DNA from: a virus
DNA: 64,000 bases
Virus record (IMG/VR): IMGVR_UViG_3300047311_000323
Span: 62,001-126,000 of that record
Reading direction: 5' to 3' (one strand)
The position numbers and the translations under genes are program-made. The notes under the pieces are model-generated. The model was not told where the DNA came from and did not search any database. It saw nothing but the letters and a program-made list of their open reading frames with translations. This document shows, in pieces, positions 20,260 to 63,453 of the stretch; position 1 is the first letter of the stretch, and every line of letters starts with the position of its first letter.

Positions 20260-22143
20260 TCACGCTGGTGGTGGTGGACCTGGTGGAGCGCCGCCTCCTG
20301 GTGGCATTAATCCGGCTGAAGCTCCACTTGGTGGAGGTGGAGGAGGACCGCCTGGGCCACCGCCTGGAGGAGGTGGTGGTGGACCACCTGGTAGACCCAA
20401 ATCTGGCATTCCGCCGCCTGGTGGTGCTCCGCCTGGAGTCTCTCCTGGTAGTGGGGCTTCTTGACCAGCTCCCTGTTGTTTTGGCTCTGGAATTTCATCC
20501 TCGTCATCCAATGCACGGAGAGAGTTGAGGTCCATAGCTTCAAGGGCGGCCGTTTCCTTCTTGGCAATTGCGTTCTGAACATTTTCTTTACGCATCTTGC
20601 GTACTTCGTCTTCATACTCAAGACCCAAAGAACGGTATAGGGTGTGAATAGAGACTCTCTTCTGGTCGGCTTGACCCTGAGATAGAGTAACTAAGCTGTT
20701 GATGTAGTCACCTGCATCAAACAAGCTCATGTGGTTCCAATCAATTTCAGGAACGATAAGTTGTTTCTCACCACCAGAGTAGTCATAGAAGCCCTGGATC
20801 TTGGAGATTGGAGCAAAAATCTTAGTCTTGAGCCACTGAGACATCATATTACGGAACTGCATGTATCTCTGACGTAGAACGTCCAAAGCTACACCGCCGT
20901 TAGCGTAAGTGGTATCAGAACCACCGTCCATCATAACTGGTGGAACGAACAAACCAACATAGATTTCCTTCATGAGCTGAGTAATATCGCCGGAGATATC
21001 GTAGATACCTTGTCCCCAACCGACTCTCTCAACAGCAACGCCTTCATGGGTGAAGATTTTGAAGTCTTTGTCGTATTGCGCTTCTTCGAAGACGCCTCTC
21101 CATGCTTCAAGGTCAGCAAAGGTTGGCTTGTAGTCAGCCGAACCAATCTTAACCAAAGTCAATGGGTTGATCATGTTATCAGACTGGGCGTACTTAGATT
21201 CACGTAGCTTATCAAAGAGCATCAACTGACGGAAAATACAGACTGGAAGGCCAGTGCCTCTAATTTCGTAAGGGCTGATACGACGAGCTAAGTGTGATAC
21301 ATGGAAGTTGTCTAGTGGAATGTTTTCTCCACGTCTTACAGAGTCGATAATGTGCTGGTTAAGCTGCTTACGCTGTTCAATATCGGTTGGACGGTTTGAG
21401 AAAATGATTTTCTTGAGGTTCTCATCAGGACGAAGCATGATGATTGGTTCGCTGGCTACGACCGTACGTTTGACAATCATGAAATCTGGGTTTTGAATGT
21501 GTAGGCGACTCCACTTGCCCTTACCTTCATCCAGTTCTGCATAAACAAACGCTTCTCCTAAGAGCCAATACTCTTGGGCAATCTGTACACAGATGTTCAT
21601 TAGGTCAATCTCTTCGATCATGTCATCGAAGAACTTTTCAATATCCTTATTAGGACACTTGATAGATAGTTTGCTGATTGGGTATGTGCTATGCAAACTG
21701 ACAGCATTATGCACGAATGGGTTCAATGCAAAGAAGCTTCGGCACCATGCATTAATAGTTGCACGGTCACGCGGTAGGTTCAAGTTGCTGTTGAGCCAAA
21801 GTGGGGAATAAACTTCAGGAGTCTGCTTGACGGTGTCGCCATGGATACCACGGAACATACCACCAGAGCTAGACACTACCTGTGAATTTTTCTTGAAGCC
21901 TACGGAGGAGACAACGTTAGAAGCCGTAGTAGGCGCGTTGGCCAATGAAAGTTTGTTATAACTTGGGCCAGAGCCATCCCTGAAGTATCCCTGTTCGACC
22001 TCGTCAGAAAGAATAACTCTTCTTTCTCCGGAGACGCCACTTGCCATAATAGCACTTACTTGTGGGGTAGTGGATCTACCTGATAAGAATCTTGCTGAAA
22101 AGGATGGGGCTTCCCCTAATCCCGATTTTTTAATACCAGCCAT
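20260..22143 (-). CDS. Portal protein with long Pro/Gly-rich tail
   Basis: A 627-residue protein forming the ring through which DNA is packaged and released. The core (about 120-530) has portal-type features: a segment on non-productive segments of DNA entry, EYWLLGEAFVYAELDEGKGK followed by WSRLHIQNPDFM, SPYEIRGTGLPVCIFRQLML, and a C-terminal helix-rich region. The final 75 residues are almost only Pro and Gly (PGGPPPPPPGGGPGG style). The ATG has GAGGT 3 bases upstream. It directly follows terminase in transcription order, as usual in tailed phages. The assignment rests on motif style and gene order and is firm. Confidence 0.85.
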   Translation of the reverse strand: MAGIKKSGLGEAPSFSARFLSGRSTTPQVSAIMASGVSGERRVILSDEVEQGYFRDGSGPSYNKLSLANAPTTASNVVSSVGFKKNSQVVSSSGGMFRGIHGDTVKQTPEVYSPLWLNSNLNLPRDRATINAWCRSFFALNPFVHNAVSLHSTYPISKLSIKCPNKDIEKFFDDMIEEIDLMNICVQIAQEYWLLGEAFVYAELDEGKGKWSRLHIQNPDFMIVKRTVVASEPIIMLRPDENLKKIIFSNRPTDIEQRKQLNQHIIDSVRRGENIPLDNFHVSHLARRISPYEIRGTGLPVCIFRQLMLFDKLRESKYAQSDNMINPLTLVKIGSADYKPTFADLEAWRGVFEEAQYDKDFKIFTHEGVAVERVGWGQGIYDISGDITQLMKEIYVGLFVPPVMMDGGSDTTYANGGVALDVLRQRYMQFRNMMSQWLKTKIFAPISKIQGFYDYSGGEKQLIVPEIDWNHMSLFDAGDYINSLVTLSQGQADQKRVSIHTLYRSLGLEYEDEVRKMRKENVQNAIAKKETAALEAMDLNSLRALDDEDEIPEPKQQGAGQEAPLPGETPGGAPPGGGMPDLGLPGGPPPPPPGGGPGGPPPPPPSGASAGLMPPGGGAPPGPPPPA

Positions 22144-22224: not shown

Positions 22225-24108
22225 TTAGAACCTTCTCGGTACATAACCGCTCATTACCATGGGTTTATTCAGGTTTTTAGGGGTATGAAGCATTGGATTG
22301 TTATTTGTGAAGCCTCGACTAACTAAGAATTTAAAAGCCAAATAAGCGTTCAGCAGTGCCATAAATCCGTCGTTTGGTGTTCCGCCCTTGACATAATGGA
22401 CTGTGTGGTCACCATATTTAGAAATAGATGGCTTGAGTTCCATACTACAACAATGGTCAATTAACCATGCAACCTTCTCATAATCTCCATATGGGAATCT
22501 AATCAGACCTTTCTTCATTTGGTCATAAAGCTCACTAATATAGAAGTCTCTCTCGAAGATAATTTCTTTTGGAAAAGCCTCATGATTAAACTTAACATGA
22601 TCATTAACTCTGTTATGAGCACGAGAGACTAGATATCTATCTCCATAAGTGTTATGTAGTGTAGAAGAAAAGTCATTAGAGTAACCAATGTCTCCAATGG
22701 TTAGCTGCACACTATACTGTCTCATCAATTGATCAATGAGCCCCTTTTTGCTTTCCGGATCATTTCGTTTAAACTTAGTAGCAAATTCAATTGACAGTAA
22801 GTTAGATCCTTTGGTTTGCAAAATAACAGCGGTACTATAAGATTGGCCAGCAGGTTTTACTCTTTCTGGGTCAGCTAATTGTTCTAGGTCAGAACGGGCA
22901 CCATAATCGATTCCCATTACCGTCAACTGCTGCATTGGTCCTTTGGTTGGAAGAATACGTGGGCTATATTTTCTTTCGAAGTCAGCACATAGAGTACGTA
23001 CCTCGTCTGGAGACATCGGACTTGCATCTCCCTGATAGAACTCTCCAAGAACTTCGTTTTGGAAAACACGCTCAGTATTGATTGGATGACGGCCCGGCTT
23101 TTCCTTATCGATATCTTCTCTAGTGAATTTGGGCATGTAAAGCTGATTGATATGGAAACCAATCATATCACAGTCTGGATCGTTTGGATTCTTCAGAGCA
23201 ACCCACTTGCCACGTTCTTGTGCTTGTAGTTTATCTTGTTCATGGCCGCATTTTGAACACTTAACTACTTTACCATGAATCCAAACTTTCTCCCAATCAT
23301 CAGAACCTGGCGTGTAAAGTGGGAAATGCTCTTCACATTTCTCACAGCCTAAGTAGTAATATTGCTGAGAAGAAGACTGCCACATCTTGTGGTAGTCAGA
23401 TCCTTTACGACGGGGCGTTCCAAAGAAAACTTGTACTCCCTGTGTAGGTCTGCCATATTTGGCGTTGGTTAGAATTTTAAGAGCGTTTCCAATAGCCTGA
23501 GTCGTTGTCTTCTGAACTTCGTCAAAGAATAGAATATCAGCGGTACGACCCATGATTCTGTCGGCGTCTACGCCAGTCGACTCTACCCACAAGTGGTTTC
23601 CGCCAATGAACTGTTTAAAATGCAAAGAATCGTTGGTAGGAGAAGACTGGTCTAGTAATTGCTGCATGAAAGACTTTGGACGAGAGCCCTTGTTTTCGGG
23701 AGTTCCTTCAGGGACCTTAGCCATATTGATCATTTGGTTTAGCTTGGTCTTAGAATAGGCCGCAGCTAACTCCAATTGAGGGAAAGCGTGGATGATACGG
23801 ATTGGTGGACGGAACCCGTCTCCGAACAAACCAGAGCCCATGAAATACATTTCCAAAGCACTAGCCATGGTAGTAGCTCCTACCTGACGGCCTTTGACTA
23901 AGATAACTGGCTTAGCATCTGGCTCTAATGCTTTAATACCAATGTATCTGTAAATATCTGAGAAGGGCTTATATCCATTACCACTCAATCTGAATGGTTC
24001 ACCTTCTAATGTTAAATTCTCTTGACAAAATGTTACGGGGTCAATCATTGAGAGTTGTCTTTTCATCTTCTCAAAGATTTCCTTATTTTCAATATTTATA
24101 CTGGGCAT
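22225..24108 (-). CDS. terL: Terminase large subunit
   Basis: A 627-residue packaging motor. The ATPase half has a Walker A variant KGRQVGATT (residues 72-80) and Walker B ILFFDEVQKT (near 191). A zinc-ribbon-like insert (CEKCEEHFP then KCSKCGHEQ) lies around 258-305, as in GpA-type terminases. The nuclease half has acidic RNase-H-like motifs MGIDYGARSD and IGDIGYSNDF. The protein cuts concatemeric DNA and pumps it into the prohead through the portal encoded just downstream. It diverges from a plus-strand gene 26 bases away. The length is typical. Confidence 0.9.
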   Translation of the reverse strand: MPSINIENKEIFEKMKRQLSMIDPVTFCQENLTLEGEPFRLSGNGYKPFSDIYRYIGIKALEPDAKPVILVKGRQVGATTMASALEMYFMGSGLFGDGFRPPIRIIHAFPQLELAAAYSKTKLNQMINMAKVPEGTPENKGSRPKSFMQQLLDQSSPTNDSLHFKQFIGGNHLWVESTGVDADRIMGRTADILFFDEVQKTTTQAIGNALKILTNAKYGRPTQGVQVFFGTPRRKGSDYHKMWQSSSQQYYYLGCEKCEEHFPLYTPGSDDWEKVWIHGKVVKCSKCGHEQDKLQAQERGKWVALKNPNDPDCDMIGFHINQLYMPKFTREDIDKEKPGRHPINTERVFQNEVLGEFYQGDASPMSPDEVRTLCADFERKYSPRILPTKGPMQQLTVMGIDYGARSDLEQLADPERVKPAGQSYSTAVILQTKGSNLLSIEFATKFKRNDPESKKGLIDQLMRQYSVQLTIGDIGYSNDFSSTLHNTYGDRYLVSRAHNRVNDHVKFNHEAFPKEIIFERDFYISELYDQMKKGLIRFPYGDYEKVAWLIDHCCSMELKPSISKYGDHTVHYVKGGTPNDGFMALLNAYLAFKFLVSRGFTNNNPMLHTPKNLNKPMVMSGYVPRRF

Positions 24109-36333: not shown

Positions 36334-36681
36334 TTATACGTCTTTGTTAGCGGTTCGTAGTTTGTCCTTCAGCATCATTTTGAAGGGCTCGCTGAGGTGG
36401 TCGTGCACTTTATTGCACCCCGGACAGACTATATCATCGTTGACGACCTTCGGCTGAGCCTCTTTTCCACACTTTGTGCACTTGACCCCGAAAGCGACCG
36501 CTTGTTTTTGCCTAAATTGTTTGAGCGCCTTCATCTGAACTTTGACGAAGTGCGTGACGTTAGGCATCTCCTGATCGCACAAGCTACAGTAGACTTTATC
36601 GGTTTTTGGATCCAAATAGGGCTCCATTTGGTTTCCGGTTCCCTTACAACCTTTGTGTTGGCAAAACATTGCGAATGGCAT
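36334..36681 (-). CDS. Small zinc-ribbon protein
   Basis: A 115-residue protein with several Cys pairs: CQHKGC near 7-12, CSLC near 32-35, CTKC near 68-71 and CPGC near 85-88. These could form two zinc ribbons. The start overlaps the DnaJ stop by one base, and the stop abuts the primase start, so it belongs to the DnaJ-primase operon. It probably binds nucleic acid or a replication partner. Confidence 0.65.
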   Translation of the reverse strand: MPFAMFCQHKGCKGTGNQMEPYLDPKTDKVYCSLCDQEMPNVTHFVKVQMKALKQFRQKQAVAFGVKCTKCGKEAQPKVVNDDIVCPGCNKVHDHLSEPFKMMLKDKLRTANKDV

Positions 36682-37613
36682 TATACTACCTCATCTAGAA
36701 GAACGCCAATCAATTTATCAGTGTTCTTTGGATATTCAACGTCTAGAATCACCCTATGGTCTCCAGCGCCGCTTACTCCGCAATGAGGTATAATTACCTC
36801 ATCACAGTTTCTAGACTGCGGTTTTACTAGAATTTCCTTGTCACCATTAATAGTCTTCACCGTATGCTTACAGCCACGTAAAGCATCCAATAGAGGAATG
36901 GTTATATGGCTGACAACACTTGTACCCTCAATATTCAATCCCGGCTCTTGAGTTACGTGTATATGACAGAACGCATCGGTATGTTGATCGGCTAGCCCCA
37001 TAAAGGAGCCGGCGTAATTTCCCATGCCCTGAAGGCGCAAAGTATTGTTATCAAGAATGCCCGCAGGCACAGACACGTGCACAGACACGTCTGCCTGTAA
37101 GGTTCCACCACCATGGCAAACGTCACATTCGGCCATATTGGCCTGCCCATAACATTCGTTACAGGTCGTCACCATAACCATATTACCCTGTCGATTGATA
37201 ACCTGGCCACGGCCGCCACACTTCTTACAACCGTTGTTGAGCTTGACATTGCCAGCTCCTCCACAGTTTTGGCACTTGCTTTGTCGAGAATACTTGATTT
37301 CTTTCTTGCAACCTAGGACAGATTCCTTGAAAGAGATGGTTAGATTCACTTCAACGTTTTCTAGTTGAATGACTTGTTGTCGATGGAATCCACCTTGATG
37401 ATAGGCAGACCGTCTGTCTTGTGGGTCAGTACTCTTACCAGTTTGTATGACCTGATTGGCTTCATTAATTTTCTTGAATCTATCCTCAGCGCCCGCTTCT
37501 TTATTTATGTCGGGGTGGTACTTTTTAGTAAGTTCGCGGTACTTCTTCTTGGCGTCCTCCGGGCTGGTGCCCTGAGGTATTTCCAGAGTTGCGTAGGCTT
37601 CCTTAAGATTCAT
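36681..37613 (-). CDS. dnaJ: DnaJ-family co-chaperone
   Basis: A 310-residue protein with complete type I DnaJ architecture: J domain with HPD at 33-35 (KYHPDINKEAG) that stimulates the Hsp70 ATPase, a short linker with reduced Gly/Phe region, a Cys-rich domain with four CxxCxGxG-like repeats (CQNCGGAG, CKKCGGRG, CNECYGQA, CDVCHGGG), then C-terminal substrate-binding barrels. It is shorter than E. coli DnaJ (376). It overlaps the RuvC gene by four bases. It probably recruits host DnaK for replication-complex remodelling (as lambda uses host DnaJ) or for folding virion proteins. No DnaK is in the window. Confidence 0.9.
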   Translation of the reverse strand: MNLKEAYATLEIPQGTSPEDAKKKYRELTKKYHPDINKEAGAEDRFKKINEANQVIQTGKSTDPQDRRSAYHQGGFHRQQVIQLENVEVNLTISFKESVLGCKKEIKYSRQSKCQNCGGAGNVKLNNGCKKCGGRGQVINRQGNMVMVTTCNECYGQANMAECDVCHGGGTLQADVSVHVSVPAGILDNNTLRLQGMGNYAGSFMGLADQHTDAFCHIHVTQEPGLNIEGTSVVSHITIPLLDALRGCKHTVKTINGDKEILVKPQSRNCDEVIIPHCGVSGAGDHRVILDVEYPKNTDKLIGVLLDEVV

Positions 37614-39733: not shown

Positions 39734-40942
39734 TTACTTACCTTTCTTCCGTTTCTTTACTTCTGTTGTATCATCGCCAGCATCGTCTACTATTGGAGCC
39801 AGAACAGCGGCTTTCTTTGCCTCTTGTTCTCTTCTAGCAGAATCTCTCTTGGCATCACGAGCCTCACCAATCTTTACGGTGAGTTCGGCAGCCAAGGCTG
39901 GGTCATCTTTGAGAGCTTCACAGAACTTTGGAAATCCAACCCACTTCTTGTCACCATATTCATGGGACACTGTGGAGGTCTTGACGACCACGTTGTAGTC
40001 CAAAGCTAATTGTGCAACTTCTTCGTGCTTGTCTATAACACCGATACCGAAGTTTACTTTGAATTCGCACTTACGTGGGTAAGGGCCGAACTTCGACTTT
40101 TCAATGGTTGCTCGCATCGTATGACCGATCTTTTGCTCTTTTTCATCCAAGATTTGTGCATCAGCACGAGCCACCGCTTCAAAGTAAACGTTGGCACTCA
40201 AGAAGTGAGCGTAAGTATTTCCACCGGAGAACGAGTGATCAACCCCATAAGGATCCATATTAGCTTTCTTGTGGTTGATGAAAATGAAGGGCACTTGCGC
40301 TCTGTTTGCATCAAGAGAAAGCTTACGGAAAGTAGTAGTTAAGAATCTGGCTAACAAAGCCATGTTCATCTTTCCAACAGCCGAAACATCTTCGCCTGGT
40401 GGAATAATGGCGCCTAGTGAATCCAATACAACCATGTTGATATTGAAGTCGCCAGCCATAATCATATCAAGTAATCCTTGCTTAGTCTTACCGACTAGCA
40501 AATGAGTCTTCTTGTCTTCCTTGGGAACACCAAGAATCATTTCGAAACAGCTACGACCAATAACGGCCGTCTCACCATCAACGACAATGATACGGGAAAC
40601 ATCCAAGCCCAAAATCTCTGCCCACTTAGCATCGAAGGTTCCTTCGGCATCAATGAACATCTGTTGGGTGCCAGGCTCAGCTTGCTGAGCTTCTTTGATA
40701 GCCAACATGGCCATGAGCGTCTTGCCGCTACCAGGAGCGCCGTAGAACTGAATCAATCTGCCTTTAGGTAGTCCTCCAGATGATAAAGCATCATCGAGAA
40801 CTAAAGAGCCAGATGGAGTTACCGGCAGCTTCTCTCCCATGGTTTCATGGGCAAGTCTGAAATCTAATTGTTCGTCGGCCTTAGCAAAACTTTGGAAAAA
40901 TGCGGTTAGCTTATCTGACTTCTTTTTCTTATCATCTGACAT
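39734..40942 (-). CDS. recA: RecA/UvsX-family recombinase
   Basis: A 402-residue strand-exchange ATPase. Walker A is GAPGSGKT at 68-75, Walker B is MVVLDSLGAI, and the L2-type DNA-binding region is FINHKKANMDPYGVDHSFSG. The ending is a charged Lys/Ala-rich and acidic tail. The ATG at 40942 has AGGAG 5 bases upstream; the longer frame starts at TTG. In the T4 model such a protein drives recombination-dependent replication and repair together with the SSB, SbcCD-type nuclease and RuvC-like enzyme, all encoded in this window. Confidence 0.9.
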   Translation of the reverse strand: MSDDKKKKSDKLTAFFQSFAKADEQLDFRLAHETMGEKLPVTPSGSLVLDDALSSGGLPKGRLIQFYGAPGSGKTLMAMLAIKEAQQAEPGTQQMFIDAEGTFDAKWAEILGLDVSRIIVVDGETAVIGRSCFEMILGVPKEDKKTHLLVGKTKQGLLDMIMAGDFNINMVVLDSLGAIIPPGEDVSAVGKMNMALLARFLTTTFRKLSLDANRAQVPFIFINHKKANMDPYGVDHSFSGGNTYAHFLSANVYFEAVARADAQILDEKEQKIGHTMRATIEKSKFGPYPRKCEFKVNFGIGVIDKHEEVAQLALDYNVVVKTSTVSHEYGDKKWVGFPKFCEALKDDPALAAELTVKIGEARDAKRDSARREQEAKKAAVLAPIVDDAGDDTTEVKKRKKGK

Positions 40943-40953
40943 TTTATCTCCTA

Positions 40954-41460
40954 TCAATCGTAGCCTTCGCCCGCATTGCTGGTCCCTGAACTATAACCGA
41001 GGATCGTCTTTCGCAGGCCCGCCGCAATGTCTTTAAAATGGTGGTGGGACTTGACTAAAATCTCGTATTTTCGTTCGAGGACGATCTTTGCGCCCTTGGC
41101 TTCCGCTAATTTGATTTGTACTTTTTCGACTTCAGGCGATGACTCTCCCGCCCATTTTTTCATGTCCACTGTCGTTCGAGCCCCATCGGGTGCTGCATAT
41201 TCTAAGGACACTTTATTCTTCGTACTGTTTACTTGCGATTCTAGATAACCTACTGTCTTTACAATCTTTGAAAGGTAACCGACTATAATGTCCGCACCTC
41301 TTAGAGATTGTTGCTGCAATAATTCAGCATGAGCCAAATCAATTGCGTCTATATCTCGTAGCTGTTCTAATACTTCCTGTATTTCGGTGAGGTCGAAATC
41401 TTTGAAATCTTCCTCTAAATTAGAACCTAAAACATCGCCTAGTCTTACTGTTTGGCTCAT
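40954..41460 (-). CDS. Helical protein upstream of RecA (possible recombination mediator)
   Basis: A 168-residue, largely helical protein (LRDIDAIDLAHAELLQQQSL, KVQIKLAEAKGAKIVLERKY). Its stop is 11 bases before the RecA start. Size, helicity and position would suit a UvsY-like mediator that loads RecA onto SSB-covered DNA, but there is no sequence signature that proves it. Confidence 0.5.
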   Translation of the reverse strand: MSQTVRLGDVLGSNLEEDFKDFDLTEIQEVLEQLRDIDAIDLAHAELLQQQSLRGADIIVGYLSKIVKTVGYLESQVNSTKNKVSLEYAAPDGARTTVDMKKWAGESSPEVEKVQIKLAEAKGAKIVLERKYEILVKSHHHFKDIAAGLRKTILGYSSGTSNAGEGYD

Positions 41461-45176: not shown

Positions 45177-45184
45177 ATATATCA
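45177..45184 (-). promoter_or_regulatory. Candidate phage promoter element TGATATAT upstream of the HTH gene
   Basis: A minus-strand TGATATAT, followed by ACGATATGG, in the 93-base leader of the gene starting at 45088. The element overlaps the last codons of the polymerase gene. A GACGGTGTCGTC imperfect inverted repeat lies 30 bases downstream of it. Confidence 0.4.
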
Positions 45185-48100
45185 ATCATCCTCGGATTCG
45201 TCATCCAAATCAATCAACCCTTCGTCATACAAAGTATCCTCGATTTGATCGAGTATCTCTTGAGGACTCTTAGGTTTTTCGTCTTCTTCCTTAATTCCAA
45301 ACATTTTGGCCTTAGCCTCTTTGAGATTGATTTTCTTGGCTTTCAAGTCATCAGGCAAAGAGGGAGGTAAGGCAATATGGTATAATTGATCCAATATGAC
45401 GCCCATGTCATCTTCATAAGAATTGGTGTTCCCCGAGAAGAACAAGGCTATACCTGTATCGAATTTGGCCTTCTTGTTAATTTCTTGTATTCTCTCCTGC
45501 ACCGTCTTCCATCGATCCGGGAAGATGGTCAAAGTACACTGATCGCCGTTCTTATCCTCGAATACGGCCTTTACCATGGGCTGGCCATAATACTTGCCTT
45601 CCTTCTTTACGCGGAACTCGAAGAAGTCTCGGATGATGCCTTTGACAGACGACACGTTGGTTTTGTCTTTGGAACGCTTGATATCCTGGACCGTTACATG
45701 ATCCCCATCGAAGAACTTGCCATAAGCCAACGACGGTTTACAAGTAAACGACTCTCCCAGATAGTATTGCTCCAAAGCATACACCTCCGGCATAGTCCAT
45801 TCATTCTCAGCAGGCCATGGGTAAACAAACTGTTCCTGAGTCGGATCATGCTTCTTCAACCAGACCTGTAGCTTCTTACGATAATCGGATACATACAGAT
45901 AAATCAGCTTGCGAGGAATCTTGAAAGAATCCAACGCTCCGCATGCGGCAAGAGCCTGAATGCTATTAGCTCGCACTGCTTTAGAACTAATTCTAGTCAT
46001 AAAGTCAAAGAAGTTTGCAAATGGCCTCTTCGAAATAATATCGTTGATAGCATCCACCCCTACAAACTTAATTGCATCCAAACCAGTAATCAATCTGTTG
46101 CCATCTTCAATAGTGTACACCAATTGAGACTTATTGATATCTGGCGGAACAATCTTAACTCTACGCTTACGAATTTCCTTCTTGATCTTCTCAATGTTTC
46201 CCTTAGAGTCTGGGGCATTAGATTTAACTTCAGCCATTAAGTTAGCCATCAAGAACTCAACCGGATAATGAGCTTTCAGATATGCCGTCTTGTAACTTGT
46301 CATAGAATACAAGATTGAGTGGGACATATTGAAACCGTAACCCTGGAACTTGTCAACAACTTCGTCCCAGATACGCTTAGCAATAGCTTCATTGACGTTG
46401 TTCTCAACAGCGCCTTTAATGAAATCGTTTCTCCACTCCTGAGCCTTCTTAGGATTCTTACCTTTTTCCTTGGTTAGTTTCCTAAGACGGTCTGCTTCGT
46501 GCAAACTCCATCCAGCTACATCCTGAGCTAGATACATAAGACTTTCTTCATACAAACCGAACCCGAAGGTGTTATTGAATGCTCGACCCAATGTCGGATG
46601 CAATAATGAGAATGGCTTCTTGCCATCCTTGGTTTTGATGAAATCGTCACGCATATCACGAGCTGACGGACGAGCTAGAGAGTTGATGTAGCTGATGTCG
46701 TTGACAGACTGGGGCTTGATACGACGGCACAGATCAATCGTGCCGCCAGATGTTCCAAGCTGGAATACACAGAAGGTATCACCACTAGAAATGGTATCGT
46801 ACGTTTCCTTGTCGTACTCATCATAACTGATGACCTCTGGCAAATACTTGCCCGAAGCCTTGATGAGCTGAACGGCTTGACCAATAATATCCAGAGTCGA
46901 GAGACCCAAAGTATCCATCTTGACCAGACCATTTTCTTCGGCCTTGTCCTTATCATACTCAATTGCTAGTGCGCCATCTTTATCCTTTCTCAAAGGAACA
47001 AGTCCAGTGAGGGGACGAGCGGAGATGATAATACCACCAGCGTGAGTCGACCAAGCGCGGTACTTTCCACAGATCGCCTTGTACTGTTCGAACTGCGGAT
47101 ATTTCTTGGCGTACTCTGCAAAGAGTGGAACTTTGGCAAGCGCATCGTCAATGGAATGGATTTCTGCTGGGATGCAGTTGGCCACTTCATTACCGATTCT
47201 TACGGCGTCTTCTTTGGAACCACCAAGCTCGCAAACGCGGGCAATGTCTTTCACATACACCTTGGGTGTAATAGTGTTGACGTTGCTGACGTGAGCTACA
47301 TGGTCCGCACCATATTTCTGTCGGAGATAATTCTGAACTTTCTCACGACCTGACGGAGCAAAGTCCGTATCAATATCAGGGAAGCTCGACTTTTCCTTGT
47401 TGTGGAAACGAGCAAAGATTAGATTATACTTGATTGGGTCTGCCTGGTGAATTCCCAGCAGATAAGCAATCAGCGAGCCGCCCACTGACCCACGACCCTC
47501 ACCAACAGCAATTTCATGCCTTCTAGCCCACTCTATAAAATCGGCCACGATGAGCATGTAGCTGGAGAAGCCATGGAACTCCAGAACGTCTAGTTCTTCG
47601 TCTATGCGCTCCATATATTGCTTGTGCTGCTCTGGCGTCAGATTCTTGACACGAGAATCAAAACGAATGACGCAACGATAGCGTAAAAACAGTTTGTCCT
47701 CATCCAGCTTCTGAACGTCTTCCGGCTGCGTAGCAACCCAAGTACGAAACTCAGCATAGTCTAACTCATCCTTGACGGGGAACTGTGGCAATTCCTTACC
47801 CGTTGGATTAGAGTACTTAGGATCAATCCACTCTGGCTTCTCGCACAGATTGGAGAAATAGATGCTGTTGTCAACAAACGTCTGTGCATCTTCCTTGTAA
47901 ATTCTGGTAAAAAACTCTTTGACTTCATCACCAGTCTTGAGATAAAACTCAGGCACAGGATAACGAAGACGGAATCCAGAATGAATTGGCTGATGCGAAC
48001 CGATGGCCAAGAAAGCATCGTGAGTGCCCGACTCTTCTTTGGTCAGGTAGTGAGCGTTACAGGCAGCGACTACACGAACGTTGTGCTTCTTACCTAGCTT

Positions 48101-48697
48101 CACTAGTTGCCTGTTCAAAAAGTCTTGATCGATTTCATCGTTGAAGATGTTTGAACCGCGCTTCATATTGTTGGGCTGAATCTCAATGCCCAAGTTATCA
48201 CCGAACAAATCTTTGAGGCGTAGAAGCGTTTGTTCAGCTTCATCAAACTTGCCCTTCATGATGGGCTGGCTGATGATACCATTACCACAAGCAGTGAGAC
48301 AAATGAGACCTTCGGTATGCTCGGCCAGTAGCTTCCAGTCGAGAACGGAATAAACTCGCTTGCCAACGAAAGAACTCTGGTCAAATCCCTTTTTGTTCAA
48401 CGTCAACAGATTGCGATAGCCAGTAGCATTCTTGGCTATCAAAACAATGTGACGGAATTTCTCATTGACATTGGAGGCGTCATCTTGAAAATAACACTCG
48501 CACCCAATGATGAGTTTGACTCCAGTTTCTTTGGATGCTTTCCATGCATCCCAAGCACCAGCTAATGTGCCGTGGTCTGTGACTGCAACGGCTGTCTGCC
48601 CAAGTTCTTTGGCCCTTTTGAAAAGACCTTTAGGCGTGATAAGCGAATCGAGAATAGAAAACTCAGTCTGATTATGCAATGAAACAAAGTCGGTCAT
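45182..48697 (-). CDS. dnaE: DNA polymerase III alpha subunit (DnaE type)
   Basis: A 1171-residue bacterial-type replicative polymerase. Residues 1-270 are a PHP domain (FVSLHNQTEFSILD, VAVTDHGTLAG). The second metal His of the usual H-x-H motif is replaced (LHNQT), so proofreading by PHP is probably lost. The catalytic palm has GEGRGSVGGSLIAYLLGI, then FPDIDTDF with the catalytic Asp pair near 440. Fingers and a C-terminal region with OB-type strands follow. The ATG at 48697 has AGGAGG 4 bases upstream. Most large phages use family A or B polymerases; DnaE-type enzymes occur in a subset of phages. No exonuclease or sliding clamp gene is recognised here, so host clamp and proofreader may be used. 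Confidence 0.92.
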   Translation of the reverse strand: MTDFVSLHNQTEFSILDSLITPKGLFKRAKELGQTAVAVTDHGTLAGAWDAWKASKETGVKLIIGCECYFQDDASNVNEKFRHIVLIAKNATGYRNLLTLNKKGFDQSSFVGKRVYSVLDWKLLAEHTEGLICLTACGNGIISQPIMKGKFDEAEQTLLRLKDLFGDNLGIEIQPNNMKRGSNIFNDEIDQDFLNRQLVKLGKKHNVRVVAACNAHYLTKEESGTHDAFLAIGSHQPIHSGFRLRYPVPEFYLKTGDEVKEFFTRIYKEDAQTFVDNSIYFSNLCEKPEWIDPKYSNPTGKELPQFPVKDELDYAEFRTWVATQPEDVQKLDEDKLFLRYRCVIRFDSRVKNLTPEQHKQYMERIDEELDVLEFHGFSSYMLIVADFIEWARRHEIAVGEGRGSVGGSLIAYLLGIHQADPIKYNLIFARFHNKEKSSFPDIDTDFAPSGREKVQNYLRQKYGADHVAHVSNVNTITPKVYVKDIARVCELGGSKEDAVRIGNEVANCIPAEIHSIDDALAKVPLFAEYAKKYPQFEQYKAICGKYRAWSTHAGGIIISARPLTGLVPLRKDKDGALAIEYDKDKAEENGLVKMDTLGLSTLDIIGQAVQLIKASGKYLPEVISYDEYDKETYDTISSGDTFCVFQLGTSGGTIDLCRRIKPQSVNDISYINSLARPSARDMRDDFIKTKDGKKPFSLLHPTLGRAFNNTFGFGLYEESLMYLAQDVAGWSLHEADRLRKLTKEKGKNPKKAQEWRNDFIKGAVENNVNEAIAKRIWDEVVDKFQGYGFNMSHSILYSMTSYKTAYLKAHYPVEFLMANLMAEVKSNAPDSKGNIEKIKKEIRKRRVKIVPPDINKSQLVYTIEDGNRLITGLDAIKFVGVDAINDIISKRPFANFFDFMTRISSKAVRANSIQALAACGALDSFKIPRKLIYLYVSDYRKKLQVWLKKHDPTQEQFVYPWPAENEWTMPEVYALEQYYLGESFTCKPSLAYGKFFDGDHVTVQDIKRSKDKTNVSSVKGIIRDFFEFRVKKEGKYYGQPMVKAVFEDKNGDQCTLTIFPDRWKTVQERIQEINKKAKFDTGIALFFSGNTNSYEDDMGVILDQLYHIALPPSLPDDLKAKKINLKEAKAKMFGIKEEDEKPKSPQEILDQIEDTLYDEGLIDLDDESEDD

Positions 48698-48761
48698 ACG
48701 ACCTCCTGATGGGTTGTGTATTGTAACACGTGCGTACATCTTACCCACTCTAGGGATTTTT

Positions 48762-48816: not shown

Positions 48817-49482
48817 TTACCTTGACAAGATAATCTTTAAATCTTTTTCGTCAAGGCTTTGGCTATTGTCGTAAAAATAGTTGATCTTCTTGAATTGATC
48901 TTTCCAAAACTTTTTATTATGAGTCTTTTTGGTAAGTAATTCTTGTAAATCATTGAATGATAATCTGCGATGACGGAACAGGGCGTGTGAAACCACCATG
49001 ACCGCATCCCAATGAGCATGAAGCTCTTGTTGAACTTCTCTCATTAGCTTTTGTTTATAAAGCGTTCTTTTAGGCCCTGGAGGTGCCAGGTTGTACTTTT
49101 TAATCACCTCTCGGGCTGATTTGTTGTCATCACTGGAGCCATCACTAATAAACGTTGGAGTTTGTCTAGATCCCGAAATACTTCTAAACAAAGAGGTTTC
49201 CGCAATCAAACCAGCGTAACTAATGCCAACTTCGGCTCTAACTAAGGTATTTAATAGGTCAGAATCTTGAATCTCATCAAAATCACTGGGATAATCGTAA
49301 TATGTAATTCCGTGAATTCTTTTTAATTTCTTATTTTCAAATACTGCAACTGAACTAACCTTCATTAGATGCAATAGCGCGTAAACTGTATGTCCAGCTT
49401 CATGATATGAAGTAGATATAAATTCGTGGGTTTTGGTAACTTTCTTTCTGATTTCAGCGATAGAACCTGTCCCATTTGCCAT
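48817..49482 (-). CDS. Stand-alone M41 (FtsH-type) peptidase-domain protein
   Basis: A 221-residue protein with the zinc-metallopeptidase motif HEAGH at 27-31 (TSYHEAGHTVYALL), the defining site of FtsH peptidase domains. A downstream acidic region (ISDGSSDDNKSAREVI) stands where the third zinc-ligand Asp is expected. There is no AAA+ ATPase domain and no membrane segment, whereas FtsH (about 650 residues) has both. It must act without its own unfoldase, or borrow one. The ATG at 49482 is chosen (GGGGTG upstream), with GTG at 49488 as alternative. It is the last of a run of short genes after trigger factor. Confidence 0.75.
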   Translation of the reverse strand: MANGTGSIAEIRKKVTKTHEFISTSYHEAGHTVYALLHLMKVSSVAVFENKKLKRIHGITYYDYPSDFDEIQDSDLLNTLVRAEVGISYAGLIAETSLFRSISGSRQTPTFISDGSSDDNKSAREVIKKYNLAPPGPKRTLYKQKLMREVQQELHAHWDAVMVVSHALFRHRRLSFNDLQELLTKKTHNKKFWKDQFKKINYFYDNSQSLDEKDLKIILSR

Positions 49483-49484
49483 TA

Positions 49485-49763
49485 TCACCCCATTCTGACA
49501 AGTAACGCCTCAAAATCATTGAGGGATTGGGTACAGTCTGCTTTTTTGCACTTTGCATTGAGCTTGTCCCCACCAAACGGACCTGTTACTATTAAGTCCG
49601 AATTATCGGCATACACCATGCCGGCTTTGGTAAAGTGGGGAGCCTCTGTAAACCCGTTACTTTTCAGAATGTCAAGCAAGGCTTGGTCCACAGGTCTGTC
49701 TAATTTGAAGACGATCTGTGTCTTGTTGCAACATGCTTGTATGAGGAACCTTTCAACCTTCAT
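49485..49763 (-). CDS. Small protein of the trigger-factor operon, unknown function
   Basis: A 92-residue protein with a compact alpha/beta pattern (QIVFKLDRPVDQALLDILKS, FTKAGMVYADNSDLIVTGPF) and four Cys (CCNK, CKKADC). It overlaps the next upstream gene by one base (TAATG). It looks like a globular small domain; no known function is recognised. Confidence 0.5.
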   Translation of the reverse strand: MKVERFLIQACCNKTQIVFKLDRPVDQALLDILKSNGFTEAPHFTKAGMVYADNSDLIVTGPFGGDKLNAKCKKADCTQSLNDFEALLVRMG

Positions 49764-50083
49764 TAGGTTCCTTTGTTATCTAGATCCACGCCTTTGCTCT
49801 CTAAGCACAGTAGAGCATACTGAATCTTAGCTTGCTGATGCTTCTTAGCATCACGATGTGGAGCAGATAGTTCTTTGGACGTTTCTCTTGCAGCAGCAAG
49901 AGCCAAGTCGGCCTCTTCCTCTTTACTGAGAGTGTAAAGGTTACCCTCACACTCAACAATAATCTTCTTTAGCTCATCAACACCAGCCGCATCGGCCGTG
50001 TCTTTGAACTCTGGCATCTTCTTAATGAGATCGTCCCACTTCTTAGGTAAACTAGTCAATGGGGTATTGATAACTTTTGCCAT
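49763..50083 (-). CDS. Small helical protein of the trigger-factor operon
   Basis: A 106-residue helical protein (PLTSLPKKWDDLIKKMPEFK, EEEADLALAAARETSKELSA). No motif is recognised. It lies 15 bases after trigger factor and overlaps the 92-residue gene by one base. It may work with either neighbour; unknown. Confidence 0.45.
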   Translation of the reverse strand: MAKVINTPLTSLPKKWDDLIKKMPEFKDTADAAGVDELKKIIVECEGNLYTLSKEEEADLALAAARETSKELSAPHRDAKKHQQAKIQYALLCLESKGVDLDNKGT

Positions 50084-50098
50084 TTATACTTTCTCCTC

Positions 50099-51346
50099 TT
50101 AATCAATCAATTTTACTGTCTTAACTACATAGTCCATAGTATTCTCGTCTCTAATACGAGAGAATAGAATCTGTAGGTAACCTGTCTTATTCATTTGCTG
50201 AATAACTTCATCTAGACTTTGGGTAACCTTAGTTTGAGCTAGGTTCTGTTTGATAATCTCAAATACTTCTTGATCAGTCAACTGAGCATCGGGCTCAGCT
50301 TCTCTAATCTTATCCAAGACCAAAGATAGCTTCACATTCTGTGCAGCCATTTCAATCATTCTTTCTTTATCAGAGTCTGGCAATACATTCCAGTCTAGCT
50401 GGGACTGTTGCGTCAAATACTGAGCTTCTGATAGAGACATCCAATTTGGAACCTGGACTTCTGTTTCAGCAACTAGCTTCTTAGCGACAGCTTCATGAAT
50501 AGCCATCTTGTTCATGGATGCAGAGCGAGCAAATGCGGCTTGAGCCACAGTCTCCTGCAATTCGGCAAAGTTGGTTTTACCAATCTTCTTAGCCATCTCA
50601 TCATCCAATGCACATGGCACAGTCTTAGAACCCATCATCAAAGTAACTTTGAAGTGGATGCTCTTGCCTGACAAAGATGGTAAACCGCCTTCAGGGGACA
50701 CGAAATCAAATTCTCGCGTCTCGCCCATAGTCATGCCCAAAAGGTTGTTGTCAAAAGCTACTAGTGGACTGCTACCAATGGTAACCATTTCACCTTCAGC
50801 AATTAGACTATCAACCTTCTCACCATCTACAGTGCCGACGTAATCAATGATAACATTGTCTCCGGCCTGCACGAAATCCGTCTCGCCATATGGAGAGGTG
50901 TCGCCAAGTCGTACACGCAAGTCCTGCATCATCTTTTCGCCTAGCGAAGTGGCATCGGCTTGTTCATGAGGCTTTGGAATCTCAATGTCTTTCCAAGCTG
51001 GTAGTTCGAAATTTGGTTTCGTCAAAATCTCAAACTCACAAGTAAACTTGCCGCCATCAAGCAACAAGTTATTGAAACGAGGTGCTCCGTGTGGTCTAAG
51101 CTTCTTTTCGAAGAGAGTATTGTGGAAAGCATCTTCAGCTAGCGCGCGCTTGAGAGCGTCATCAATCTGCTGACGATAATGGATTCGGATATGTTCGGGA
51201 CCGGCCTTGCCTTCTCGAAATCCTGGCACTGGTGCCTTTTTGAAATGGGTTTCTACTTCCGCTCTCTTGTCAGAGATTTCTAGGAAGTTAGCCTCATAGT
51301 GAACGGCCAATCTGCATTGTTCAATTTCAGTTACATCAATTTTCAT
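50099..51346 (-). CDS. tig: Trigger factor (ribosome-associated chaperone)
   Basis: A 415-residue protein, close to the 432 of E. coli trigger factor, with all three parts. The N-terminal ribosome-binding domain (1-110) contains PGFREGKAGP with GFREGK at 42-47, the signature that docks on ribosomal protein L23 at the exit tunnel. An FKBP-type prolyl isomerase domain follows (about 150-245: AGDNVIIDYVGTVDGEKVDS to LPSLSGKSIHFKVTLMM). The C-terminal helical arms (250-415) cradle nascent chains. The start has GAGGA 5 bases upstream. The docking site is intact, so it probably competes with or replaces host trigger factor on ribosomes, favouring phage proteins; this is an inference. Confidence 0.92.
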   Translation of the reverse strand: MKIDVTEIEQCRLAVHYEANFLEISDKRAEVETHFKKAPVPGFREGKAGPEHIRIHYRQQIDDALKRALAEDAFHNTLFEKKLRPHGAPRFNNLLLDGGKFTCEFEILTKPNFELPAWKDIEIPKPHEQADATSLGEKMMQDLRVRLGDTSPYGETDFVQAGDNVIIDYVGTVDGEKVDSLIAEGEMVTIGSSPLVAFDNNLLGMTMGETREFDFVSPEGGLPSLSGKSIHFKVTLMMGSKTVPCALDDEMAKKIGKTNFAELQETVAQAAFARSASMNKMAIHEAVAKKLVAETEVQVPNWMSLSEAQYLTQQSQLDWNVLPDSDKERMIEMAAQNVKLSLVLDKIREAEPDAQLTDQEVFEIIKQNLAQTKVTQSLDEVIQQMNKTGYLQILFSRIRDENTMDYVVKTVKLID

Positions 51347-51355
51347 CGGTTCCTC

Positions 51356-52141
51356 TTACCAGTTAACTTCACCGTAAACTTGTTGATCAAAAGCTTTACT
51401 CTTGCCGGCTGGGCACTGTTGTAGATAATCGCAATAGTTACAGAGATTGGTTGGGGTTGGCGGAAACTCTTTTTCCGCTCTCATTTGTGCAGCATACTCT
51501 TCGAACTTATCTTTCACCGATAGTATCTCGGCCAAAGAGAACTCCGTTGTAATATACTCAAAATCATGCCTCAACAACACATAAGAGCCCCTTACTTTCG
51601 TAATAGTGGGATCATCGTGAAGTAGCACGTAAGCATATGTCAAGAGTTGGAACCAATCATTCTTCAGATATTTTTTATGTTTGGTCGTTTTGTAGTCGGC
51701 CACGTGGATGACATTATCAGCATCCAACTGAATCCTGTCAATTGCTCCGTTTAAAACAATATTTTCAGTGATCGGAAAGTCGAATCTTTTTTCTGCCGCA
51801 ATTACGTTGGCTGGCATGCCGCTTTGTTTTTCTTTTGAAGCAAGCGCCAAATATCCGTTGAGAATTTCCCAGCATTCCTTTTTCATCTCTGGAGTCATTC
51901 TGTCTTTGAATTCCGCCCAAGCATGTTTGAATGCATCACCCATTGTAACATTGTATGGCAGCAAGCAACCATCAATATACTGCTTATGAAAATACTCTAA
52001 AGCTGAGTGGCAGAATTTACCAAAAGTGTGAAACTCCCATTCTTTGCGTGGCAATTTCTCAACATAACAAAACTTAAACTTAGCTTTGCAATCCAAAAAG
52101 GTTTTGGTCTTGCTAACCGATAGGCGCAATTCATCTGTCAT
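51356..52141 (-). CDS. RecB/Cas4-type PD-(D/E)XK nuclease with iron-sulfur cysteine pattern
   Basis: A 261-residue protein. The nuclease core is LNGAIDRIQLDADN followed by VADYKTTKHKK, giving the G-x-x-D...D-x-K site. Cys18 (FLDCKAKF) together with the C-terminal CNYCDYLQQC trio has the spacing of the 4Fe-4S cluster that clasps AddB/Cas4-type nucleases. It probably degrades or trims DNA ends in recombination. It lies 9 bases before trigger factor. TGATATAT and an inverted repeat are in its leader. Confidence 0.85.
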   Translation of the reverse strand: MTDELRLSVSKTKTFLDCKAKFKFCYVEKLPRKEWEFHTFGKFCHSALEYFHKQYIDGCLLPYNVTMGDAFKHAWAEFKDRMTPEMKKECWEILNGYLALASKEKQSGMPANVIAAEKRFDFPITENIVLNGAIDRIQLDADNVIHVADYKTTKHKKYLKNDWFQLLTYAYVLLHDDPTITKVRGSYVLLRHDFEYITTEFSLAEILSVKDKFEEYAAQMRAEKEFPPTPTNLCNYCDYLQQCPAGKSKAFDQQVYGEVNW

Positions 52142-52165: not shown

Positions 52166-52186
52166 AATACTTATATATCAAGTATT
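52166..52186 (-). promoter_or_regulatory. TGATATAT element inside a 7-bp inverted repeat, upstream of the nuclease gene
   Basis: The minus strand has AATACTT-GATATAT-AAGTATT, a perfect 7-bp inverted repeat enclosing the octamer TGATATAT (52173-52180), 32 bases before the start at 52141. Promoter plus operator in one is plausible. Confidence 0.45.
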
Positions 52187-53109
52187 CAGGGCAATTGTTT
52201 CCTGTCAAAATTAGGATCATCATAGTCTAGGATCTTAGATCCAAAAGCCCTAACTACTTTAGGCGCGCTCATTGAACTTTGATTGTACCCATACTTGGTA
52301 ACAAAATCTGTATTGTGGAACTGGAATTTTGGTTCCTTTGAGTTTGTAATATCTGCCTTCCAAGAGCCCATAGGACTTATAGGGTCTTTACCGGCGTGAT
52401 GGACTTTATGCATCAACATATACTGGCCTTGCCCTTTAAGTAGGATAAAATCCTGAGCCAGAACATTGTATATGTTTTGAGGGGCGGGAGGTGGGGTCGG
52501 AGTAGTTGGCGTCGAAACAGGACTATTGGGGCTAGGTGTCTTAACGGGCACTTTTGCGTTAACTGCCGTAAATGGTGCTTGAAACTTCTTCAAAGAAGAT
52601 TTGATCTCTTCAAGAAGTTTAACATACTGATCAGCGATCTGATGAATGGCCTTATCCTGTGAAGTACTTAGCTGATCATACGCCCCATTAAGCGTAGTTA
52701 GATCTTGCCCTTTGGACTGAAGAATTCTCACCAACTCTTCATACTTCTTAGTTGTCTCCTCGTAAGAAAGAATGAACTCCTTCTTCGTATCAAAAGACCT
52801 TTCATCGCCTTTGAAATATTCATACAAAATGTATTGCTCTAACGGTTCAATAAAACACTTATCAGGACCATTGATAATAACATCATCCGTTATTCTAGCC
52901 TCATAAGTGCTGCCCCCATCTTGAGCAGATCCCATCAAACTGTGCTTGGGGTTTGCATTTAGCACCTTGAGAAAATCGCCTTTTGTATTTCTCTTGCTGG
53001 CATCTTCGGCAATACCGGGCTTATATGCATAAGTCCTAAAGTCATCATTGCTGTTAACCTTTTTGGCTTTGCACTTTCTTGAGTACAAATCAATCATTTT
53101 ATCTTTCAT
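52186..53109 (-). CDS. Uncharacterised protein with Pro-rich linker
   Basis: A 307-residue protein. The N-terminal 180 residues are helical and charged, with a coiled-coil-like section (EETTKKYEELVRILQSKGQD); a Pro/Ser/Thr linker (PTTPTPPPAPQN) follows, then a C-terminal beta-rich domain (FILLKGQGQYMLMHKVHHAG). No motif is recognised. It has its own sigma-70-like promoter. It could be a virion-associated protein in the replication half; unknown. Confidence 0.45.
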   Translation of the reverse strand: MKDKMIDLYSRKCKAKKVNSNDDFRTYAYKPGIAEDASKRNTKGDFLKVLNANPKHSLMGSAQDGGSTYEARITDDVIINGPDKCFIEPLEQYILYEYFKGDERSFDTKKEFILSYEETTKKYEELVRILQSKGQDLTTLNGAYDQLSTSQDKAIHQIADQYVKLLEEIKSSLKKFQAPFTAVNAKVPVKTPSPNSPVSTPTTPTPPPAPQNIYNVLAQDFILLKGQGQYMLMHKVHHAGKDPISPMGSWKADITNSKEPKFQFHNTDFVTKYGYNQSSMSAPKVVRAFGSKILDYDDPNFDRKQLP

Positions 53110-53207: not shown

Positions 53208-54242
53208 TTAGAATAGAACGCGCCTGGTAAATGGCAGCCACTCGAAAACTACGCCAGCTCCGCTCTTGGTTCCCATAGCTGTTGCTGCCATGTTTCCGTC
53301 AAACGTTCCGTTGGGTTGGTAAGGTGCTGTGGAGATAATCCATTTGTTAGACCAGGAGTCTCTGTAATAATGTGTAATTGTATTGGTACGTGGGTTGTAG
53401 TGCGCTCTTACAAAAGAACCGCTTATTGGGGCTGAGGCATCTAGTCCAGTATTGAAATAGAAAGTGCCGTCCCTGGCTCTCTCAGGATTCTCTAGTGTGA
53501 AAAACTGTCTGTTAATCTGTGGAGGATCGTTTGGGTCCTCTTTGCTAAAGTCTTGGAAGATAACCATAGCCCTAGGGTCAAACAAATTGGTAAATTGCTG
53601 AGTCTCCTCTGGGCCCTGTCCTGAAGTCTGTCCCCTATCTATCTGAACGTCACTTGGGTACGGCAAAGTGGTTTTGCCTGGCATGTTACCAATATTGCCA
53701 CCTTGATTACCGCTAGCGTCTCTATCTGTGTAAGTGATTTGATAGTTGGTAGAATTGTATGGTTTGTTGGTGAATCCAGTAGGATTTCCCTTCCCATCAT
53801 ATCCGTTTGGAATAGCTGGCTTTGAAGGATCATAAACTGCGCCATCATATGGTCCCGCATTGGCCGGGTTAGTGTATCCCTGTTGCGGCTGGAATGGAGG
53901 AGTTCCAAATGGATAGGCGTCTGGAATAACGCTACCGGCTTCAGCGGTAGTTCCAGAGTGTGGCAAACGGGCATTGCCGTCTACAATGTTAGTCATATAC
54001 TGATCAACAACAATCGGAGATGAATCTACACCGTTAGTGGCTAGCGCTTTTAGTGTAACCAATAGCTGGTCAAATGGCAAAAAGATTGGACCTGTGTACA
54101 TGCTAGAGAACAAAGTTGGGTCAGTGCCATCTAGGGTATAGAAAATGGTAGCTGGAATATTGGTGGTAATAGAGACCGTCTTAGGTATTCCTGAGACTAC
54201 CTGTTCTGACGATTGTGTAATTGTAACGCTAATGACTGCCAT
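53208..54242 (-). CDS. Putative virion protein with chitobiase-C-terminal-like domain
   Basis: A 344-residue protein. Residues 1-85 resemble the immunoglobulin-like domain at the end of chitobiase/beta-hexosaminidases (IPATIFYTLDGTDPTLFSSM, then YTGPI), which in phages often decorates tail or neck proteins. The middle is Gly/Asn/Pro/Tyr-rich and the end has beta strands (GTFYFNTGLDASAPISGSFV). No catalytic motif. It is a probable structural protein, coupled to the 104-residue gene by one base. Confidence 0.55.
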   Translation of the reverse strand: MAVISVTITQSSEQVVSGIPKTVSITTNIPATIFYTLDGTDPTLFSSMYTGPIFLPFDQLLVTLKALATNGVDSSPIVVDQYMTNIVDGNARLPHSGTTAEAGSVIPDAYPFGTPPFQPQQGYTNPANAGPYDGAVYDPSKPAIPNGYDGKGNPTGFTNKPYNSTNYQITYTDRDASGNQGGNIGNMPGKTTLPYPSDVQIDRGQTSGQGPEETQQFTNLFDPRAMVIFQDFSKEDPNDPPQINRQFFTLENPERARDGTFYFNTGLDASAPISGSFVRAHYNPRTNTITHYYRDSWSNKWIISTAPYQPNGTFDGNMAATAMGTKSGAGVVFEWLPFTRRVLF

Positions 54243-61871: not shown

Positions 61872-62126
61872 ATTCTTTTTAGCGTTGAAATCGTCCAAAA
61901 TACTGGAGGCTTCTTTGAATAGACCTCTAGCTTCAGCGAACCAAAGATAAGAGCTAATGATCTCACGAGCTTGACGATAATCCTCAGCAGGATCACACTG
62001 GTCAAGACAATTCTGGCAAATCTTAAAACGAGTTACATTGATTTTAGATAGAGCTACGCTCTGGAGTTCTTCAGAATCGAACTCCTGAGCACAAACAATG
62101 CAGTTACAAGATGTTACCGGGGTCAT
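61866..62126 (-). CDS. Small protein: zinc finger plus helical tail
   Basis: An 86-residue protein with CNCIVC near the N-terminus and CQNCLDQC near 37-44, a probable single zinc site, then a helical C-terminal half (DYRQAREIISSYLWFAEARG). It has AGGAAG 7 bases before ATG. It probably binds nucleic acid or a protein. The leader has TGATATAT. Confidence 0.55.
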   Translation of the reverse strand: MTPVTSCNCIVCAQEFDSEELQSVALSKINVTRFKICQNCLDQCDPAEDYRQAREIISSYLWFAEARGLFKEASSILDDFNAKKNS

Positions 62127-62754: not shown

Positions 62755-63453
62755 TTACAATTCGGCAAGGGCATCGTATATGTCCTTACCATCAATCTCG
62801 TTACCTAGACAAGTCCAACCCGGTCGGAGTCTCCTGGCGAACAATTCTAGTTTACGAGCTAATGGAAACATGGTTTCCATTGATTCCTGCAAGTCATCCG
62901 GCTTGGCCGAATGTTTTAGGTTCTCAGCAAAGCTAACTGAGCGTTGTGATTTGTTAGCTAACTGCTTGAGAATCTTACCACGAGTTCCAATCAAACAAAT
63001 CTCGTGAGTCTGTCTAAACAATCGACCCATAAAGAAAGCTAGTTCCTCTGCTAAGTCTATTCTTAGTAGATTTTCCATAATCGACTTGACTGCTCGGTCA
63101 TAGGCGAATTTGTCATAAGCTACCTGTTGATGTTTCAATATGCTTTTCTTAATCCACTTAATGAAACGTTGGAATCTGTGCTTTTTGATTTTGACCCATA
63201 CATAGGTCTGCTTGTGGTCGAAGCCCCAAGCTTTCATGGTGTTCAGCCCATCTTGCAGCAATGAGCCTGGCACCCATAAACATAAGACTGCACCATCGGG
63301 ATCGCAAGCCTCTTCTACGGGCATCTCGCGAATTTGTTGCATTGTCATGGTGTCGTAGTTGGCCTTGGCCCCACGCTTGACATCCGACATTTTAAGAGAA
63401 TCCTTGAATGGCCAGGGAGGATCAGCCACAATTACCGAATACTTTTTACCCAT
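62755..63453 (-). CDS. MT-A70-family adenine methyltransferase
   Basis: A 232-residue protein with the MT-A70 catalytic motif ADPPWPF (10-16), then MTMQQIREMPVEEACDPDGA and LCLWVPGSLL. The family transfers methyl to N6-adenine in DNA or RNA. An inserted basic helical segment (about 105-150) interrupts the usual fold, and the C-terminal strand GRLFRQTHEICLIGTRGKI is intact. It is probably DNA methylation for restriction evasion. GAGG lies 6 bases before ATG, next to the HNH gene. Confidence 0.85.
   Translation of the reverse strand: MGKKYSVIVADPPWPFKDSLKMSDVKRGAKANYDTMTMQQIREMPVEEACDPDGAVLCLWVPGSLLQDGLNTMKAWGFDHKQTYVWVKIKKHRFQRFIKWIKKSILKHQQVAYDKFAYDRAVKSIMENLLRIDLAEELAFFMGRLFRQTHEICLIGTRGKILKQLANKSQRSVSFAENLKHSAKPDDLQESMETMFPLARKLELFARRLRPGWTCLGNEIDGKDIYDALAEL

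Follow-up and report, generated by a model that had tools for sequence, protein, structure and literature searches.

Huge phages of an uncultivated lineage carry, as a core gene, a full-length trigger factor with a conserved ribosome-docking loop

An uncultivated lineage of huge phages carries a trigger factor (TF) as a core gene, located beside the gene for DNA polymerase III alpha. We describe it from the window, by which we mean the whole 64,000-nucleotide stretch of DNA analyzed here, positions 62001 to 126000 of a 198,396-base IMG/VR virus record. By family, fold, and docking motif, the open reading frame (ORF) is a true trigger factor, and it is a phage-specific variant. We think it fairly probable that this protein, made with the replication block, docks on ribosomes and acts as a holdase for phage proteins during their synthesis. 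The gene and its parts are as follows, with approximate domain limits.

50099..51346, minus strand: phage TF, 415 amino acids (aa), full length (TIGR00115, Pfam, AlphaFold2 model)
51011..51346, minus strand: N-terminal ribosome-binding domain, residues 1 to 112 (Trigger_N, 1oms_B match, lowest mean entropy)
51206..51223, minus strand: ribosome-docking loop GFREGK, residues 42 to 47 (G and R equivalents kept in 51/51 phages of the tree set; G-x-R-x-[GN] in 71/71 polymerase-anchored loci)
50612..50899, minus strand: FKBP-type isomerase domain with an eroded pocket, residues 150 to 245 (FKBP_C, residue loss)
50102..50611, minus strand: C-terminal chaperone domain with arms, residues 246 to 415 (Trigger_C, model helices)

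The original prediction, made from the sequence letters, had called this ORF a full-length TF and proposed a profile search against the family. The ORF scored 188.9 bits with the NCBI equivalog model for trigger factor, TIGR00115 (curated cutoff, 180.2). Trigger_N (residues 1 to 135; 63 bits against a cutoff of 22.2), FKBP_C (residues 158 to 217; 25.9 against 21.1), and Trigger_C (residues 261 to 408; 33.3 against 22.7) all exceeded their Pfam gathering scores and followed each other over the full length in the order typical of trigger factors. An AlphaFold2 model built from an alignment of 42 phage sequences (mean pLDDT, 84.7; pTM, 0.65) matched E. coli TF (1w26_A) from end to end (Z = 19.0; root mean square deviation [rmsd], 9.2; 393 residues). 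An rmsd this large is consistent with a different placement of the domains, and the N domain by itself matched 1oms_B closely (Z = 13.2; rmsd, 2.1; 114 residues). The predicted isomerase domain and arms are thus present as a fold, but the isomerase pocket is eroded. The window and E. coli proteins share the three domains in the same order, the whole-length fold, and G-F-R-x-G docking, yet they are only 21% identical and differ in length (415 and 432 aa). Among the 42 phage copies, Pfam recognized Trigger_N in 42, Trigger_C in 41, and FKBP_C in 29. The best PHROG match, phrog_26774 (E = 3.3e-27), carries no function; our results suggest that this PHROG is a viral trigger factor family.

Scans with phage-specific patterns recovered 41 viral loci, on contigs of up to 480 kb, whose TFs were 43 to 86% identical to that of the window, and a wider scan reached copies at 20 to 42% identity. 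Once contigs retrieved twice had been discounted, TF was carried by 69 distinct viral contigs, always in the same position beside the polymerase (69/69), an arrangement far beyond chance. Even six deep contigs, with TFs 20 to 26% identical to the window copy, shared the polymerase linkage. To avoid selecting by TF, we also ran the search in reverse, anchored on the polymerase, and scored those loci that had 3 kb or more of upstream sequence. TF was present in all 71 such loci, ending no more than 3.4 kb from the polymerase, and nearly all copies were 400 to 430 aa long. Near-identical contigs remain in both the 69 and the 71, so these counts do not represent independent events. The presence of TF at every polymerase-anchored locus makes it a core gene of the lineage.

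The following genes flank TF in the window.

51356..52141, minus strand: PD-(D/E)XK (RecB/Cas4-like) nuclease, upstream of TF (PF12705, 117 bits)
49763..50083, minus strand: 106-aa small protein, directly downstream of TF (homologues in 63/69 distinct contigs)
49485..49763, minus strand: 92-aa small protein containing CC(G) and a Cys late in the sequence (homologues in 64/69 distinct contigs)
48817..49488, minus strand: candidate M41-like metallopeptidase with HEAGH (46/69 distinct contigs)
45182..48748, minus strand: DNA polymerase III alpha, 1188 aa (phrog_405, E = 3e-251)

The nuclease lies upstream of TF in 68/69 contigs, and the remaining contig ends there. The immediate neighbors had been put forward as possible partners of TF. 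For the M41-like gene we reject a general role of this kind, as the outer members of the clade lack the gene (absent from 23/69 contigs). It scored 15.6 bits against a gathering score of 29.9 for peptidase M41 (PF01434) and can be called M41-like only. The two small genes are better candidates. The 106-aa protein had no Pfam family above the cutoff, and a weak match to phrog_1244, seen in 1 of 29 members, was discarded. In the 92-aa family, Cys11 is invariant and Cys12 and Cys77 are nearly so. The AlphaFold2 model of this protein (pLDDT, 90.8) had no Foldseek match in the PDB at E ≤ 0.001, and a Pfam spider-toxin match (3 of 28 members; best E, 0.001) was taken as an artifact of cysteine spacing.

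Several further observations concern this block. A 344-aa protein with a chitobiase C-terminal/Fn3-associated domain (53208-54242, minus strand), an odd domain for a replication block, is encoded in 68/69 distinct contigs, the remaining one being cut. Between it and the nuclease lies a 307-aa gene (52186-53109, minus strand) that is absent from all 41 near relatives. The polymerase is in two pieces in six loci (L174, L177, L178, L180, L181, and L186), possibly because of an intron, intein, or homing insertion.

The record is a genuine phage and not a bacterial contig. The window includes the following phage genes alongside TF.

20260-22143: portal
22225-24108: large terminase
39734-40957: UvsX/RecA recombinase

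It also encodes SbcC, SbcD, a primase, a dNMP kinase, and DNA polymerase III alpha. Almost all long ORFs are on the minus strand, and the gaps between TF and its neighbors are 9 and 15 bases. Shine-Dalgarno sequences were counted at 26 of 52 genes, a figure that has no background control and was set aside. Elsewhere in the window are a 1252-aa protein that resembles a head maturation protease at residues 105 to 213 and has no Pfam domain (11173-14931, minus strand) and a candidate MT-A70 type adenine methyltransferase (62755-63453, minus strand; 110.8 bits).

A bacterial contig mis-binned as phage, or a host gene captured recently, would be suggested by the housekeeping role of TF in bacteria and by certain "phage" TFs in databases that are in fact bacterial; one example is a contig of Acinetobacter "phage" MD-2021a on which the gene order is tig-clpP-clpX. 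Terminase, portal, and replication genes share the window with TF, however, and the same gene block recurs in the 69 distinct viral contigs. In an unrooted tree of 58 rows (24 phage and 34 cellular), a single branch divided phage from cellular TFs (support, 99/98; present in 98% of bootstrap trees), and a quick tree of 117 rows (51 phage and 66 cellular) gave the same division with a support of 97. Identity between phage and cellular TFs is only 20 to 29%. The phage-specific patterns, scanned against 84,980 species genomes, found no TF copy. Mis-binning and recent capture, which we regard as extremely improbable, are rejected because the trees, the shared block, and the species-genome scan all contradict them. 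The original prediction had named a place inside a mis-binned bacterial contig or cellular flanking genes as outcomes that would undo it; instead, replication genes of the phage flank TF, which falls outside all sampled bacteria in the tree.

The phylogeny thus returned the phage-specific clade that had been raised as one possibility. The best cellular matches were weak, reaching 22 to 33% identity in the best segment, and were spread among Acidobacteriota, Thermodesulfobacteriota, Bacillota, and Pseudomonadota. The hope of guessing the host from the nearest cellular branch was disappointed, as no cellular branch lies near enough to give a usable signal. Marks of cellular origin, namely, grouping with cells and a place beside clpP-clpX, are absent: unlike bacterial tig, the window gene sits on a phage-only branch, neighbors DNA polymerase III alpha rather than clpP-clpX, and encodes an eroded pocket. 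Judged from the sequences sampled, the window TF is an old phage-private branch that was not captured recently; the bacterial sample was drawn with the pattern GFR[KP]GK and lacks some phyla, e.g., Bacteroidota and Cyanobacteria, so that a nearer cellular branch may still exist.

Our search, which covered a library of open-access papers, found none on a phage-encoded TF; one match concerned TF as a solubility tag, and the main text of a huge-phage survey (PMC7162821) does not name TF. Among isolated phages in INPHARED, we found none with TF. The INPHARED matches were rejected as phage genes because they look cellular (unannotated faecal contigs; pieces 95 to 99% identical to E. coli TF), although the Acinetobacter contig was the only one of them examined gene by gene. 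Three INPHARED "phage" records, L043 (CAKLQH020000005), OR851629, and OR845171, carry bacterial tig, in one case as tig-clpP-clpX together with tatABC.

The docking loop is under strong constraint, and TF as a whole is under purifying selection. The signature predicted at residues 42 to 47 reads GFREGK, as expected, and matches the degenerate GxRxG form used elsewhere (PMC11559001). In the longer signature, GFRxGxxP, the final Pro is out of register in the window copy (GFREGKAGP), as in most of the clade. Unlike bacterial tig, the phage genes usually lack this residue, which the alignment places in 14/45 main-clade phages against 65/66 cellular TFs. Among the tree phages, part of which were retrieved with the docking motif itself, the equivalents of the E. 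coli residues were kept at G43 (51/51), F44 (49/51), R45 (51/51), G47 (50/51), and K48 (48/51). The polymerase-anchored loci gave a similar picture: G-x-R-x-[GN] was found in 71/71, with R in 71/71 and GFR in 63/71, the Phe being replaced by N, S, or Y in the other 8. Across the 41 near loci, the N domain was the most conserved part of the protein (mean entropy, 0.94, versus 1.22 to 1.46 in other parts) and had the most invariant columns (28/112). The dN/dS ratios of TF were 0.051 (L003/L004) and 0.068 (window/L002), as read from the two closest pairs, the remaining pairs being near or beyond synonymous saturation.

In the main clade, by contrast with cellular TFs, the isomerase domain has retained its fold and lost key pocket residues. 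The equivalent of Tyr221 (E. coli numbering) was found in 0/45 main-clade phages versus 56/66 cells, and the GG motif was found in 0/45 versus 51/66; the Phe185 equivalent was likewise absent from all 45. The equivalents of F198 and F233 were mostly retained, and Tyr221 was retained in 4/6 deep phages. These positions sit in a gapped part of the alignment, yet 30/45 phages had no aromatic residue at all across the segment, and none of the 45 main-clade copies had an intact FKBP-type active-site pocket. TF chaperoning has been reported not to need isomerase activity (PMC11559001), so membership in the TF family stands despite the eroded pocket.

Two further genes of the record belong to translation and folding.

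36681..37613, minus strand: phage DnaJ with a J domain and a DnaJ C-terminal domain (PF00226, 56.1 bits; PF01556, 76.4 bits)
G000:127094-127465, just outside the window: bS21, 123 aa, with N- and C-terminal extensions

Both bS21 and DnaJ were present in 15/15 large genomes tested, which held 1 to 58 tRNAs each and no GroEL; all 15 were selected for carrying TF, and the set lacks unrelated huge phages as a control. For Bacteroidetes lake phages with bS21, a redirection of initiation in the late phase of infection has been proposed (PMC9723584). Those phages resemble the window lineage, which also has bS21, in aiming genes at the host ribosome, but bS21 is proposed to act at initiation and TF would act at the exit tunnel; we claim no common lineage. 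The DnaK/DnaJ of moraphages (PMC12619734) are, like the window TF, phage-encoded folding helpers. They are reported to bear signs of recent transfer from Flavobacteriales, whereas no such signs are seen in the window TF, a constant gene of its lineage.

These features suggest the following course of events. The phage-private TF, inherited within the huge-phage lineage, would probably be cotranscribed with the polymerase, the nuclease, and both small genes. Its N domain, to judge from conservation, would dock on uL23 of host ribosomes, and the protein would hold nascent phage polypeptides until folded, among them large proteins like the 1188-aa polymerase, acting as a holdase and not as a prolyl isomerase. 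It may combine with phage bS21 and DnaJ into a phage-supplied cotranslational folding path that is independent of the host TF supply. The fold, the retained docking loop, the dN/dS values, the core-gene status, the phage-only branch, and the isomerase erosion all favor this reading, as does the company of bS21, DnaJ, and tRNAs. Counting against it are the substitutions of the docking Phe and the usual absence of the final Pro, and the constant linkage to replication genes, which could mean a role in the replisome. The phage protein may also compete with host TF for ribosomes, as had been suggested from the retained loop. A bolder form of this idea, which we put forward only tentatively, has the host ribosome re-equipped at both ends, with phage TF at the exit tunnel, backed by phage DnaJ, and phage bS21 at initiation; phage TF would displace host TF in infection, providing a phage-specific holdase for nascent phage proteins and reducing host cotranslational folding.

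Because TF lies so regularly beside the polymerase and the PD-(D/E)XK nuclease, with the 106- and 92-aa genes nearly constant, it might instead work mainly off the ribosome, folding or assembling these adjacent proteins and small partners; TF is known to act in assembly off the ribosome, and the titles of 3gty and 3gu0 speak of folding and assembly activities. We find this unlikely, given that the ribosome-docking residues need not then have been kept and that expression timing alone can preserve gene order. The docking loop is the best-kept part of the phage protein, and this would also suit a TF that slows host protein synthesis and division simply by being an extra complete ribosome-binding copy in a cell that can bear no more than a single dose. 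One TF gene is found in 97.44% of TF-bearing bacterial genomes, and more than one complete copy is found in only 0.15%; overproduced E. coli TF lowered total protein to 64.7% and blocked Z-rings in an N-domain-dependent manner (PMC11559001). As bacteria mostly have a single TF and excess TF lowers synthesis, the phage copy may burden host translation. Such a purpose nevertheless seems quite unlikely to us: phage translation should suffer too, the chaperone arms are likewise constrained, as seen in the recognition of Trigger_C, and the gene lies in the replication block and not among known host-takeover genes. The same harm bears on the ribosome-docking holdase that we favor. A second complete TF, when overproduced, harms bacteria (PMC11559001), so the benefit to phage proteins would have to exceed it. 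N-terminally defective TF homologues, e.g., in Myxococcus (PMC11559001), are similarly extra TF-type proteins in a TF-bearing cell, but they lack the N domain and docking motif, both of which the phage copies retain.

Bacteria almost never hold two complete ribosome-binding TFs (PMC11559001), and yet this huge-phage lineage imports one as a core gene. The lineage is therefore a natural system for why TF dose matters. It lets one ask whether viral takeover of the ribosome can extend from initiation to the exit and how TF functions when its isomerase pocket is no longer intact, and it offers structure-function studies a new and diverse branch of TF.
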